Of a stretch of DNA of 64,000 bases, positions 5,156-40,414 are shown one piece after another. Numbering within the stretch: position 1 is the stretch's first letter; each line of letters opens with the position of its first letter. The stretch is from Nitrospirota bacterium. Its GTDB lineage: Bacteria > Nitrospirota > Thermodesulfovibrionia > UBA6902 > DSMQ01. The position numbers and the translations under genes were made by a program. The stretch is taken from assembly GCA_016208965.1 (NCBI GenBank), contig JACQXB010000023.1, positions 1 to 64,000 on the forward strand, given 5' to 3'. The notes under the pieces were generated by a model. The model was given only the letters and a program-made list of their open reading frames with translations, did not search any database and was not told the DNA's origin.

Positions 5156-6445
5156 ATGACACTAACCCATAAAAAATCTTTAGAGTTGTTTAAAAAGGCA
5201 AAAACCTGCATCCCCGGCGGTGTTAACAGCCCTGTAAGGGCATTTAAGGCTGTTGGTGGAAATCCGTTGTTCATCAAATCAGCAAAAGGCTCAAAGATAT
5301 ACGATGCTGACGGGAATGAATATATTGACTATGTGCTTTCATGGGGACCAATGATTCTTGGACATGCACATCCGCAGGTTACAAGGGCGCTAAAGAAGAC
5401 CGTAGAGAATGGCACAAGTTACGGAGCGCCAACGAGCCTTGAGACAGAACTTGCAGAGATGATACTTAAGGTGTATCCGTCAATGGACAAACTAAGGATG
5501 GTGAATTCAGGTACAGAGGCAACAATGGCTGCTATCAGGGTTGCAAGAGGGTTTACAGGTAAAGATAAAATAATAAAATTTGAAGGATGCTATCACGGAC
5601 ACGGAGACGCCTTTCTGGTAAAGGCAGGGTCAGGTGCAACCACACTTGGTGTGCCTGATAGTCCGGGGGTGCCAAAGGATTATGCAAAAAACACTATAAC
5701 AGTTCCTTTTAATGATTTAATGGCACTTAAAAAGACTCTTGAGAAAGAGGCAAAGAATATTGCCTGTATGATTCTGGAGCCTGTAGTTGGGAATATTGGA
5801 TGTGTTCTTCCAAGAAAAGGTTTTCTTGAGGGGGTAAGCGAGCTTACTAAAAGATATGATATTGTCTTAATATTTGATGAGGTCATGACAGGTTTCAGGG
5901 TCTCATTCGGCGGTGCACAGAAGGCATACAAAATAAAGCCTGATATGACCTGCCTTGGAAAGGTAATCGGCGGGGGCTTGCCTGTTGGCGCGTATGGAGG
6001 AAGAAAAGACATAATGGCAATGGTATCGCCTGAAGGTCCTGTTTATCAGGCAGGCACACTTTCAGGCAATCCTATTGCAATGACTGCTGGTATAGAGACA
6101 TTAAAGATTTTATCCAAACCTGATACTTATAAGAATCTTGAAGAAAAGGCAAAAACACTTGAAGATGGACTTAAGGATGCTGCAAAAATGGCAGGGGTTA
6201 AGACAAAGTTTTATAGGGCAGGGACAATGTTCTGCACATATTTTACTGATAAAGAGGTTGTAGATTATAAGACAGCTAAAGCTTCTGACACAGGTAGGTT
6301 CGCAAGGTTCTTTCAGGAGATGCTTAAAAGAGGGGTCTACCTTGCACCATCACAGTTTGAGGCAGGTTTTATCTCCCTTGCACATTCTCAAAAAGATATA
6401 AATACCACTGCAAGAGCTGCTTATGAAGCATTCAGAAAGGCATAA
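5156..6445 (+). CDS. hemL: Glutamate-1-semialdehyde 2,1-aminomutase (HemL)
   Basis: This PLP enzyme converts glutamate-1-semialdehyde to 5-aminolevulinate in the C5 heme pathway. Motifs are [11 protein letters not shown] near the N-terminus, [33 protein letters not shown] and the PLP-lysine region [17 protein letters not shown] take ATG 5156 (about 429 residues, normal length) because GAGGTGA sits 6 bases upstream; a GTG at 5147 falls inside that site. A TATAAT lies at 5111-5116. The stop codon overlaps the ychF start (TAATG), so the two genes are probably co-transcribed. Confidence 0.95.
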
Positions 6446-7575
6446 TGAGACTTCTCATTACTGGTTTTTCCAACTCGGGCAAGACAACTATCTTCAATGC
6501 ACTTGCAGGATTAAATTTTGAAGTCACGGTATATCCTACATTAGCTTCAAGCAATCCTGAACCGCATATCGGCATTGTAAATGTCCCTGACAGCAGGGTT
6601 GAAAGGCTTTCTGCTGTTTATAAACCCAAGAAAAAAACCTTTGCAACAATAGAGTACATTGACTATATAGGTTTTACAAAAGGAGATACTGCGCAAAACT
6701 TTAGGGTCTTTAATTTTATAAAAGAAGCTGACGCAATAGTTCATGTTATAAGGGCATTTGATGACCCTGCTGTTTTACATCCAATGGAAAGCATTGACCC
6801 TGTGAGGGATGCAAGAGATTTTGAGTCTGAGCTTATATTGGGGGATTTAGAGTTTATTGAGAAAAGACTTGAACGGATAGAGCATTCTTTAAAAAGAGGC
6901 GAGAAAAAGACAGTTAAGCCCGGCGATAAAGAACTCCTTTTAAAATGCATGTCAGCACTTGAAAGTGAAATACCGCTTCGACATCTTGAGTTTACAGAGG
7001 AAGAAAAAAAACTTATGCAGGCATATCAACTCCTTTCCATAAGCCCGGAGATAATAGTGCTTAACATGGCAGAGGGTGATTTAAAAACAGATAAAGAGAG
7101 CAGGCTGAAGGCTGAACTGGAAAATTATTTCAAAGCCAAATCCCCAACCCCTAACTCCCAAGCACCTGATTATCCCGTGCTTTTTTTATGCGGAAAAATA
7201 GAAATGGAGGTTTCCCAGCTTTTAGTAGAAGAGAGGGCTGAATTCCTTAAGGAACTTTCCATTAAAGAGCCTGCTACGGATAAGTTATGCAGAATTTCAT
7301 ATGAACGACTTGGCTTGATTACCTTCTTCACTGTGGGAGAAGACGAGGTAAAGGCATGGACAATAAAAAAAGGCACTAATGCACAAAAGTCAGCAGGGAA
7401 AATTCATTCAGATATAGAGAGAGGTTTTATAAGGGCTGAGGTCATAGGTTTTGATGATTTTGTGCAGTCAGGCGAAAACATGGTCACTGCCAAAGGCAAG
7501 GGGCTCTTAAGGCTTGAAGGCAAAGAGTATATTGTAAGAGACGGGGATATTATTAATTTTAAATTTAATGTGTAA
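6445..7575 (+). CDS. ychF: YchF/Obg-family ATPase
   Basis: This is a 376-residue P-loop protein of the Obg branch, translation-associated and typically preferring ATP. The P-loop is GFSNSGKTTIF at the N-terminus. A coiled-coil segment lies at about residues 125-170, and a C-terminal TGS-like domain ends GLLRLEGKEYIVRDGDIINFKFNV. The G1 loop has Ser-Asn-Ser where most family members have Pro-Asn-Val-Gly, and the N-terminal part is divergent, so this is an atypical YchF paralogue. It is translationally coupled to hemL and converges on the metallo-hydrolase gene. Confidence 0.85.
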   Translation: MRLLITGFSNSGKTTIFNALAGLNFEVTVYPTLASSNPEPHIGIVNVPDSRVERLSAVYKPKKKTFATIEYIDYIGFTKGDTAQNFRVFNFIKEADAIVHVIRAFDDPAVLHPMESIDPVRDARDFESELILGDLEFIEKRLERIEHSLKRGEKKTVKPGDKELLLKCMSALESEIPLRHLEFTEEEKKLMQAYQLLSISPEIIVLNMAEGDLKTDKESRLKAELENYFKAKSPTPNSQAPDYPVLFLCGKIEMEVSQLLVEERAEFLKELSIKEPATDKLCRISYERLGLITFFTVGEDEVKAWTIKKGTNAQKSAGKIHSDIERGFIRAEVIGFDDFVQSGENMVTAKGKGLLRLEGKEYIVRDGDIINFKFNV

Positions 7576-34578: not shown

Positions 34579-34650
34579 GCCGATGTAGCTCAGTGGCAGA
34601 GCAACTGATTCGTAATCAGTAGGTCGAGGGTTCAAGTCCCTCCATCGGCT
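34579..34650 (+). tRNA. tRNA-Thr (anticodon CGT)
   Basis: Acceptor GCCGATG pairs with CATCGGC at 34643-34649. The anticodon loop is TTCGTAA, and TTCAAGT lies in the T loop. CCA is not encoded; the gene runs into TTTTTTT, a likely terminator. It marks the left border of the accessory region and could be an integration target, but no duplicated 3' end was found. Confidence 0.95.
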
Positions 34651-34711: not shown

Positions 34712-34815
34712 ATTGTATAGTTTTTGTATAGTTGGTTTCTCACCGTTAATAGTGTTATCCAGTATATCTACCGCTTTAACTTTGTGGCTTGGTGCAAGAT
34801 GGGCATATCTGAGGG
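34712..34815 (-). pseudogene. Tail fragment of a tyrosine recombinase
   Basis: The sequence is about 80 percent similar by eye to 37503-37602, in the same orientation. There the minus strand reads MTLRYSHLAPSHKVKAVDIL, the last helix of an XerC/phage-type integrase with its active-site Tyr. The fragment ends abruptly at CTGAGGG, where a HigA fragment begins. Confidence 0.65.
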
Positions 34816-34936
34816 AACATCTTTATCGCGTGCTTTCAAGGCGAGGCAATCCTGAAATAAGAAGCCTGCTGACACTGCTTCACGCTATGGGACTGGAGCT
34901 TAGTGTAAAGGTGCAGAAACAGGTTTATGCGTAAGT
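34812..34936 (+). pseudogene. Duplicated C-terminal fragment of a HigA antitoxin
   Basis: This is nearly identical to 38369-38486 (encodes EHLYRALSRRGNPEIRSLL TLLHAMGLELSVKVQKQVYA as one run). Only the last ~40 codons are present, fused to the integrase tail. It is a recombination scar rather than a gene. Confidence 0.8.
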
Positions 34937-34991
34937 CAGCAGGGAACGGAAGCAAGGATTTTCTCTGTTAATTCTCCTACTTGGCTTTAAG

Positions 34992-37839: not shown

Positions 37840-38169
37840 ATGGAAACATGCCCTTTCACGTTTGAGTATTATATTACTGAAACTGGCAAGATTCCATTTA
37901 AAGAGTGGCTTGAAAGCCTCAAAGATATACATGCCCGGGCTAAAATTCGAATTGCACTTGACCGCATAAGGCTGGGAAACTTTGGACATGCTAAGTCTAT
38001 TGGTGAGGGCGTTAATGAATTGAAAATTGATTGCGGTCCCGGATACCGCGTATATTATGCTTTTACTGGAAAGACAATTGTTTTGCTTCTGCTTGGCGGA
38101 GATAAGGCATCACAGAGTAAAGATATTGCTCGTGCAAAGGAGTACAGGAGAGTATTTAAACGGAGGTGA
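37840..38169 (+). CDS. higB: HigB-like RelE/ParE-superfamily toxin
   Basis: The 109-residue toxin reads FEYYITETGKIPFKEWLESLKDIHARAKIRIALDRIRLGNFGHAKSIGEGVNELKIDCGPGYRVYYAFTGKTIVLLLLGGDK. This is the pattern of the phage-derived Gp49-like/HigB addiction-module killer proteins that cut mRNA on the ribosome. It is followed after five bases by an XRE-type antitoxin. Both reading frames are intact. Confidence 0.85.
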   Translation: METCPFTFEYYITETGKIPFKEWLESLKDIHARAKIRIALDRIRLGNFGHAKSIGEGVNELKIDCGPGYRVYYAFTGKTIVLLLLGGDKASQSKDIARAKEYRRVFKRR

Positions 38170-38174
38170 TATAA

Positions 38175-38486
38175 ATGGCAATAAAACCAAAAAAGAGTTA
38201 TCAGGAAGACCTTATTGAAAGTCTGAAAAATCCGAAAGAGGCTGCCGCATATTTGAATGCTGCAATTGAAGAAGGAGACCGTGAATTATTATTGCTCGCG
38301 CTCAGAAATATTGCCGAAGCTCAAGGCGGAATATCAGCAATAGCAAAAAAGGCTCATCTTAACAGGGAACACCTTTATCGTGCTCTTTCAAGGCGAGGCA
38401 ATCCTGAAATAAGAAGCCTGCTGACACTGCTTCACGCTATGGGACTGGAGCTTAGTGTAAAGGTGCAGAAACAGGTTTATGCATAA
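38175..38486 (+). CDS. higA: HigA-like addiction-module antidote protein
   Basis: This 103-residue antitoxin has the layout of the addiction-module antidote family (DLIESLKNPKEAAAYLNAAIEEGDRELLLLALRNIAEAQGGISAIAKKAHLNREHLYRALSRRGNPEIRSLLTLLHAMG), which includes an HTH. GGAGGTG is well placed upstream. It should bind the palindrome in the promoter. Its C-terminal 40 codons are duplicated at 34812-34936. Confidence 0.87.
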   Translation: MAIKPKKSYQEDLIESLKNPKEAAAYLNAAIEEGDRELLLLALRNIAEAQGGISAIAKKAHLNREHLYRALSRRGNPEIRSLLTLLHAMGLELSVKVQKQVYA

Positions 38487-38541
38487 GTCAGCAGATGTAG
38501 GCACTCTTTATCAAAAATAGTCCCTACTTTTTACTATGTAT

Positions 38542-38577
38542 GGTGATAACAAGAAAACTTGTTATCACCCTTTTTTG
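38542..38577 (+). terminator. Rho-independent terminator of higBA
   Basis: The perfect 12-base stem GGTGATAACAAG/CTTGTTATCACC has a four-A loop, followed by CTTTTTT. It isolates higBA from the cassette that follows. Confidence 0.9.
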
Positions 38578-38718
38578 CGTGGATAACAAGTTAGGAATTA
38601 TAATCACATCCATGAAAAATTGTCAAATTCGTTGCTTAATGCTATCGCTTGTAGTATGATAACAAGAAACCAGTTAATAATATTGTTAGGCTGTAAATAA
38701 AACGAAAGGAGACCATCA

Positions 38719-39213
38719 ATGTTCAGATACAAGCCGAGACAAAAGAATTTATTGTATCTGTTCTTAGCTTTTATTTTAGCACTGGGCGTTGGCGGATGTT
38801 CTGTAAAGCTTATTACAGACCATGATGCGAACACATTTGAGGAAATTTTAAAGGTTTCAAAAAAAGTTGATTGATTTTACGGTAACTTACTTGAGACACC
38901 AGAAATCGACAGGAAATATTCGAAATACGCCGAACAATACGTTGAGATAGAAACGGACATTAGATCGCTCATAACACGCAATCAAGCTAGGCCACTAAAT
39001 GAAGAATCAATAAAGATTTCAGAAACAATTCTTAAACTTTGGGTTAAATACAAGCAAAAATATCAAAAAGAAGATAGCTACTCAAATGGTACAGCAAAAC
39101 TTGATAGAAATAGATTCGTTAGACTATTCAATGCGGCGGCTGCCGCAGAAGAAGTAAAAAAACTAGAACCAGATGATCGTGATGATAAAAAAGATAGTAA
39201 AGAAGTTAAGTAA
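38719..39213 (+). pseudogene. Lipoprotein gene interrupted by an in-frame TGA
   Basis: From ATG 38719 (GAAAGGAG upstream) the product has an N-terminal KPRQKN, a hydrophobic core and the lipobox GVGGC-S. At codon 52 there is a TGA (38872-38874). The same frame then stays open for 112 more codons to TAA 39211-39213, with sensible helical, charged composition (KYSKYAEQYVEIETDIRS, LKLWVKYKQKYQKEDSYSNG). A single TGG-to-TGA change would explain it. No other gene here uses TGA as sense and no SECIS-like element was seen, so it is probably a recent null allele or a sequence error. Confidence 0.7.
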
Positions 39214-39247
39214 TTATGAATGAATCGACTTGCAGGAGGTTCCATAA

Positions 39248-39571
39248 ATGGGTTTTGATATTGATAAAACACTAAATGAAATGGCAAAAGCTATTGGAGC
39301 AATTTTTACCGGTGAGTGGCCCAAAGTCAAAGACTGCGTAGAAAATGTGCTCAAGGATGAGAGGAAAGCATTGGCAGATATTGCGAAAGCTCGATTGTCA
39401 GACAATATAAATGATGATGAATTAAAATCTCAGCTTGAAGACGAACAGGCAACATTGGAAGCCGCTCTCTTGGTTTGCGGACTAAAAGCAAAAGCAATGG
39501 TTCAGAAGGCAATAAATGCTGCCCTAAAAGTTTTTGAGGATGCTGTTAAAACGGCTATAAAGGCAATGTAA
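39248..39571 (+). CDS. Small alpha-helical protein of unknown function (cassette gene 2)
   Basis: The 107-residue protein begins GFDIDKTLNEMAKAIGAIFTGEWPKVKDCVENVLKDERKALADIA and is almost wholly helical and amphipathic, with many Ala, Lys and Asp residues and two Cys. CAGGAGG is seven bases upstream of the ATG. It has no signal peptide. The family is not recognised. It is sandwiched between a lipoprotein and a two-helix membrane protein in the same cassette, which suggests a joint envelope-related job. Confidence 0.7.
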   Translation: MGFDIDKTLNEMAKAIGAIFTGEWPKVKDCVENVLKDERKALADIAKARLSDNINDDELKSQLEDEQATLEAALLVCGLKAKAMVQKAINAALKVFEDAVKTAIKAM

Positions 39572-39633
39572 CATTAGAAGGTCTACATGGCTTTAGACAA
39601 ACTGTAGCATTAAATTGAAAGGAGGTATATAAA

Positions 39634-39960
39634 ATGGCAATCTTTTTTAAATCAACACCAATAATTAACACAGCCAAAGATTTATTTGAAGAAGCTCTAA
39701 AAACGGATCCTGCCACAATTTCTCAGCCATCTGTTGAGGCAGCTAAAAAGGCAGAGGAAATTGCTCGTTCGGCGAGGGGTTCTTTTTCTTGGGGGCGACT
39801 TGCTGTAGCTATAGTATTACTACTTGGGATATTGATTGCTGCTATCTATACCGCTCAAAACGATAAGTTAGTAGATTTGTATAAGTTGCTACTACATTCT
39901 TTTGAGTTGATCTTAGGAGCGGTTGTAGGTCTTCTCACTGGAGAAGCAATCAGCCGTTAA
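39634..39960 (+). CDS. Small two-helix membrane protein of unknown function (cassette gene 3)
   Basis: The 108-residue protein has transmembrane segments at about residues 55-75 (WGRLAVAIVLLLGILIAAIY) and 86-105 (LLHSFELILGAVVGLLTGEA). An amphipathic N-terminal half precedes them. A strong AAAGGAGG precedes the ATG. The layout recalls holin-like or small pore proteins, but no family is recognised. Its stop lies 37 bases before the attC site. Confidence 0.7.
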   Translation: MAIFFKSTPIINTAKDLFEEALKTDPATISQPSVEAAKKAEEIARSARGSFSWGRLAVAIVLLLGILIAAIYTAQNDKLVDLYKLLLHSFELILGAVVGLLTGEAISR

Positions 39961-39996
39961 AAAAAAGATAAGGACAGCGTCATGGAATGTATGAGT

Positions 39997-40056
39997 GCCT
40001 AACAAATCACTCAAGACCGACGCGCAAAATCGCGCGTCTTAGTTCGGCCGTTAAAA
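39997..40056 (+). repeat. attC recombination site
   Basis: It starts GCCTAACAA (R'' RYYYAAC core), continues TCACTCAAGACC, has the central stem GACGCGC/GCGCGTC around AAAAT, then TTAGTTCGGC and ends CGTTA. Length and layout closely resemble known short attC sites of aadA-type cassettes (TAACAA.TCA.TCAAG...CGGCTTAA.TC...CGTTA). It lies immediately after cassette gene 3. Confidence 0.8.
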
Positions 40057-40219
40057 TGAATTTATTCAGGAAACTGTTCACTCCCAATAAAACAACGTGC
40101 AAATTGGGCAAGAAATCTATTATAACTCTTTCCTAAATGTGGGTTGATAATTCTGATATTAAGAATCGGGCGGTAAATATTCCCACTGCATAATGTAAAG
40201 GGGCAATTCTTGATGGGCA

Positions 40220-40414
40220 TTAGTAAATGTGAACCCTGTCTTTTTCAGGGACATAGAAGATTACAGGGTCTTTTGCTCCTTTTTTCTTTGCTTCCTCAAA
40301 GACCTTTGATGGGTATTTGCCAAAGCTTAGGACTCTTTTATCTTTGAATGATTTTGTGGCTACATATTGACCGCTGTATTTATCCCCATCTTTTACTAAA
40401 ATGTTTCGTGGCAT
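40220..40414 (-). CDS. DUF5678-like small protein
   Basis: The product of about 64 residues (MPRNILVKDGDKYSGQYVATKSFKDKRVLSFGKYPSKVFEEAKKKGAKDPVIFYVPEKDRVHIY) follows the DUF5678 pattern: a tight beta pair around KY.G.YVA, then a helix with an A..KG motif, then an exposed YVP strand. ATG 40414 has GGAGGG four bases upstream. These proteins often accompany small TA-like modules. It sits directly downstream of trpD on the same strand. Confidence 0.6.
   Translation of the reverse strand: MPRNILVKDGDKYSGQYVATKSFKDKRVLSFGKYPSKVFEEAKKKGAKDPVIFYVPEKDRVHIY

Follow-up and report, generated by a model that had tools for sequence, protein, structure and literature searches.

Does a short stretch of a Nitrospirota chromosome, bounded on one side by an integron-type core and on the other by a hairpin resembling an attC site, constitute a genuine gene cassette, and if so, how does it come to lie where no integrase gene stands beside it? 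We examined the locus within the window, by which we mean the whole 64-kb stretch of DNA analysed, within the draft genome to which it belongs (1.67 Mb in 50 contigs, 88% complete) and in the genomes of its relatives.

A gene cassette with a canonical attC site

An initial sequence-only reading had placed the cassette between a GTTAGGC core and an attC site beginning GCCTAAC and closing with CGTT, and these positions proved exact to the nucleotide (Table 1). The attC R'' box is the exact reverse complement of the left core at all seven positions; that is, the first bases of the cassette (G^TTAGGC) are complementary to the start of its own attC (GCCTAAC), a correspondence to which that reading had rightly drawn attention. 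The site runs GCCTAAC-AAATC-ACT(C)AAGA-...-TCTTAGT-TCGGCC-GTT, with R''/R' and L''/L' pairing, spacers of 5 nt after R'' and 6 nt between L' and GTT, and an L'' of 8 nt whose fourth base is extrahelical, leaving L'' and L' to pair at seven of seven positions. Identical geometry is found in the plasmid attC sites of aadA1, aadA2, aadA16, aac(6')-IIa and cmlA1. Compared with the class 1 attC of the aadA1/aadA2 type (60 bp), the window site is alike in length, in both spacings and in the extrahelical fourth base of L'', whereas its terminal stem-loop has a different sequence and the site is chromosomal, with non-resistance cargo.

Canonical geometry with seven of seven L pairs occurred a single time in 254 kb of genome scanned, at this site, and its chance rate, from dinucleotide shuffles of the 64-kb window, was 0.025 per window. 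A covariance model (R1) built from ten attC sites with that of the window left out—seven taken from integrons on plasmids, two from locus L030 and one from contig C35 of the same genome—scored the site at 44.3 bits (E=4.5e-9), far above threshold, with the runner-up in the window at 9.9 bits, and ranked it fourth genome-wide. The last core at the attC reads GTTAAAA, with bases that belong to the flanking site, which fits the expectation for the last cassette of an array. We conclude that the segment is a genuine integron gene cassette.

Table 1. Coordinates of the cassette, its genes and its flanks in the window
Feature	Position	Strand	Remarks
HigB/HigA-type toxin-antitoxin pair	37840-38486	+	TIGR02683 and TIGR02684 above cut-off
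Conserved element (left flank), predicted Pc-attI	~38542-38691	+	hairpin GATAACAAG/CTTGTTATC, more GATAACAAG repeats, promoter, attI core
Predicted cassette promoter Pc	38632-38660	+	TTGCTT - 17 nt - TATGAT; conserved hexamers and spacing
Core site GTTAGGC, left end of cassette	38685-38691	+	cleavage G^TT
Integron gene cassette	38686-40050	+	1365 bp
Gene 1, lipoprotein	38719-39213	+	164 codons; lipobox ..GVGGC; TGA interruption at 38872-38874
Gene 2, soluble all-helical protein	39248-39571	+	107 aa
Gene 3, two apparent transmembrane helices (by inspection)	39634-39960	+	108 aa
attC site	39997-40056	+	R'' 39997-40003, L'' 40009-40016, L' 40037-40043, GTT 40050-40052
Right flank, gene fragment (3' part, damaged) ending at the integron boundary	40053-40220	-	80-85% DNA identity to L152/L153

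The same reading had supposed chromosomal cassettes to be little described in such organisms, and multi-gene cassettes to be rare; in this genome neither cassettes at large nor multi-gene ones are rare. Genome-wide, the attC model gave 23 matches at E<=5, of which about 20 are credible; some stand alone, and the rest form arrays on C3, C6, C10 and C21. Many of the array cassettes hold a toxin-antitoxin pair or a methylase gene, and in arrays several ORFs separate neighbouring attC sites, so that multi-gene cassettes are ordinary here. Most attC sites of the genome share AATCCAGCGGA...CCGCTGATT (on C3, C6, C10, C18, C22, C31 and C37). The window attC is of another type, a difference that suggests a foreign origin for its cassette.

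A repeated element before the cassette

The 100–150 bp preceding the cassette are repeated in relatives, and the copies stop at the same ...ATATTG^TT. Sought with a sequence model (R2), the element was detected in 25 of 150 relatives and in 27 of 231 genomes of the class, and we tabulated 29 copies at E<=1e-4. Nearly all of the 19 closest copies contain TTGnnn, 17 nt and TATGAT, then AAC[AG]AGAAACCAGTTAATAA, then the GTT core; in the window the corresponding predicted promoter, Pc, ends ~25 nt 5' of the core. In about half of the copies the core deviates from GTTRRRY.

Cassettes follow some of these copies at the G^TT core: an attC lies on the same strand within 2.5 kb of 12 of the 29, and for the 28 copies outside the window we observed 11 such sites against ~0.46 expected, a figure that uses the attC density of this genome as a proxy for the others. 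Other cassettes at the element include a methyltransferase gene followed by an attC of 56.6 bits as a single cassette in G049, an RRM-type protein with attC in G056 and BrnTA with attC in G094. Directly upstream of five of the 29 copies (L205, L202, L203, L185 and L188) is a divergent intI or its remains, such that the element lies between intI and the first cassette; copies L149 and L208 are too near a contig start for an upstream intI to be judged. G453 (L205) retains a complete unit, consisting of an intact intI of 453 aa, the element, GTTAGGC, one gene and attC, while the integrase gene beside the element is incomplete in G442 (L202), where the contig stops within it, broken in G454, internally deleted in G129 and reduced to its N-terminus in G134. 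In G006 a related core, TCTAATAACTGGTTGTGC, comes after an intact integrase that belongs to the clade of these intI genes.

Linkage to intI and attC, together with the conserved promoter and core, indicates that the element is the attI site plus cassette promoter of one integrase clade, an assignment made from sequence comparison. As such it would bind the integrase, and Pc would be active. With no attC in the DNA examined for 17 of the 29 copies, the element might also act as a plain promoter. A reading of the left flank as a long attC of the HigBA pair was rejected, the partner box RYYYAAC being absent. The copy at L154 (G048:C20, 2101-2153) covers only the element's left half; its hairpin (GATAACGAG/CTCGTTATC) shows compensating changes, and it ends in a palindrome, GGATAAC...GTTATCC, which is possibly a binding site for the integrase or a regulator.

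Outside class 1 integrons, attI sites are poorly described and are missed by standard software (PMC9024848). As far as our literature search reached, an attI-promoter family spread through one class, with most copies lacking intI, is new. Recognisable by sequence alone and tied to a specific integrase clade, such a family would outlast its integrase at most positions, and both the loss of integrases and their possible action in trans can thereby be tested directly.

A probable integron remnant without its integrase

In a complete integron intI adjoins attI; at the window locus a HigB/HigA-type pair takes up the position expected of intI, and a search for intI gave no match in the 64-kb window. 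Intact intI genes do exist elsewhere in the genome, one on C35 (415 bits) and one near the end of C17 (404 bits; cut-off 265), each near a contig end with cassette DNA alongside; the latter (C17:161003-161929) is the nearest on the contig, ~120 kb from the cassette. Both are of another type, with 42-43% identity to the cognate integrase and different attI sequences, and of the cognate type this genome keeps no more than fragments, on C27 and C41. The C27 fragment belongs to a decayed integron (L218, 1380-2480) in which a broken intI of the window-attI clade precedes a related core, TATAATAACTGGTT, and then attC-like DNA. Among 61 relatives, 27 had an integrase above the cut-off.

The element being linked to attC and intI in relatives, the window presents a cassette standing first at Pc-attI without an intI of its own, and we consider it probable that the locus is a chromosomal integron remnant, retaining Pc, attI and one cassette in first position after loss of its integrase gene. 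An intI would once have lain adjacent; an integrase would have taken up the cassette, in circular form, through attI x attC recombination at G^TT, Pc would drive transcription of the three cassette genes, and the adjacent integrase gene would have been lost. Because the draft is incomplete, a cognate intI could also be hidden in the unassembled part of the genome. The order of Pc, attI, cassette and attC is that of sedentary chromosomal integrons, from which the window locus differs in having no intI, and the intact unit of G453 joins all these parts around the same attI element.

Arrays that lack an integrase match complete integrons in frequency (PMC9024848), and a CALIN, a cluster of attC sites without intI, is by default recognised from two attC sites upwards (PMC9024848); other arrays of this genome qualify, and the window locus, with one attC, falls short of the definition. 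It is because software asks for two sites that isolated single cassettes go unnoticed. A CALIN with its own attI and no integrase is known from the Shewanella prophage M16-3 (PMC9892861). The window locus resembles it in that cassette DNA comes after an attI beside which no intI stands, yet it has a single attC, its attI is of another sequence and carries a conserved promoter, and sites of this kind are numerous across the class.

Rather than relics of intI loss, orphan Pc-attI elements might be landing pads that have spread by copying within the genome and rely on an integrase encoded elsewhere and acting in trans. G017, with at least four strong copies of the element, including a pair of like orientation separated by 3.8 kb, lends this some credence, as do the lack of an adjacent intI at most copies and the presence of an intact IntI of another type in G000 (the genome studied here), G017 and G003. 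We nevertheless judge it unlikely, given that intI or its remains stand at the expected place in five copies, which demonstrates intI loss as a process, and that the intact integrases of G000 are not of the cognate type; moreover, we know of no mechanism for copying attI. The wider proposition, that orphan promoter-bearing attI sites would serve this class as dispersed, expressed landing pads, several per genome, capturing single cassettes with an integrase acting in trans, likewise seems doubtful to us.

Insertion at an attG, a secondary site at an unremarkable G^TT of the genome, remote from integrons, has been documented (Loot et al. 2024, according to the accounts in PMC12444791 and PMC12901181 that cite it) and would suit the distance between the cassette and the nearest intact intI on the contig. 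The insertion point, however, coincides with the end of an element that other genomes show in linkage with intI and cassettes, and we rejected this highly improbable origin, which calls for a site that is neither attI nor attC, once the element was recognised as a likely attI. Least credible of all, to the point of being negligible, is that three ordinary chromosomal genes happen to precede a chance hairpin or transcription terminator resembling attC: the stem is indeed G+C-rich near its tip, but the full attC geometry, the exact match of R'' to the left core, the covariance score and homologous loci that likewise start at GTTAGGC all oppose it.

The neighbourhood of the presumed remnant offers further observations. 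Relatives of the right-flank gene at L152 and L153 look, by inspection, like retropepsin-type proteases, and the gene is longer in G028 and G040. A search with the joined flanks for an empty site returned none that was clear, the repeated left-flank element surfacing instead, and Rfam models matched only tRNAs in the window. A 131-bp direct repeat (34812-34942 and 38364-38494, 96% identical) duplicates the 3' end of the HigA antitoxin gene, the extra copy lying shortly after a tRNA (34579-34650); with one copy there and the other at HigBA, the repeats may bound a small island.

The cargo genes and their relatives

That the cassette holds three genes, each with a visible ribosome-binding site, agrees with the sequence-only reading; what had been read as a lipoprotein, however, is only the 5' third of a longer gene, whose first ORF of 51 aa is stopped by an in-frame TGA, after which no further stop interrupts the frame as far as 39213. 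In place of the TGA, homologues have Q, R, H or Y, and they are uninterrupted, and on account of this stop the cargo module may be inactive in this genome. The three proteins gave nothing significant in Pfam, NCBIfam, PADLOC or PHROGs, no relatives of them were found in viral contigs, and a PDB sequence search likewise found none. The AlphaFold model of the gene 2 product has five helices (pLDDT 90.4) and, by Foldseek, no match in PDB or BFVD at E<=0.001; that of a lipoprotein homologue, computed from a single sequence, is unreliable (pLDDT 51). Gene 3 has one homologue among 396 genomes of the phylum, 35% identical and adjoining a different lipoprotein.

The cargo is probably a small accessory module, consisting of a lipoprotein and a helical protein, to which gene 3 here adds a membrane protein with two helices. 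Judging from the lipobox and the membrane helices, the cell envelope is its likeliest site of action, a tentative placement that leaves the envelope-targeted module proposed from the sequence plausible and partly supported: the adjacency of the lipoprotein and helical genes is conserved, and the membrane protein's homologue sits beside a different lipoprotein, while the function itself is a prediction. That the pair might instead form a defence or inter-bacterial conflict module is an idea prompted by G187, where it lies directly 3' of genes that look, by inspection, like a methylase, an FRG-type and a DUF262-type gene, and by the abundance of methylases and toxin-antitoxin pairs in the cassettes of this genome; we think it improbable, the PADLOC matches of the cargo being weak (E 0.0014 or worse) and the contexts of the pair in Vibrio and in other classes of the phylum not evidently defensive.

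Lipoprotein and helical genes are adjacent in eight loci from distant taxa. Homologues of gene 1 at 51-55% identity come from a Bathyarchaeota MAG (L029) and a Betaproteobacterium (L030); both are uninterrupted and have gene 2 after them. Homologous loci free of attC-like ends would have spoken against a cassette, but in two of the three close homologous loci, these same two, GTTAGGC precedes the lipoprotein start, by 49 nt in L029 and 28 nt in L030, against a chance expectation of ~0.001 per locus. The L030 core is the end of an attC of 57 bits, and the genome has an intact intI; the pair is thus in cassette form there also. L029 has GTTAGGC at its left end and GCCTAAC after gene 2, and the pair is probably in cassette form there too, although the locus comes from a single MAG, in which mis-assembly or mis-binning is possible. 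Archaeal integrons have shown that cassettes are shared across domains (PMC9668308), and the same cargo pair in a Bathyarchaeota MAG resembles such sharing; unlike the window cassette, the L029 copy has no recognisable full attC and no third gene.

Profiles of both proteins recovered further adjacent pairs in G187 (L075) and Vibrio (L028), and more distant ones in three genomes from other groups of the phylum (L076, L077 and L081). As these are mostly without attC, the pair is older than its cassette form, and the cargo represents an undescribed two-gene family of distant phyla, possibly spanning domains. The distant pair at L077 is followed by a gene resembling a papain-type peptidase. At L029, ATGGATAGGGGGCAT occurs on either side of the cassette-like locus (5586-5600 and 6663-6677, approximate positions), ~1.08 kb apart.
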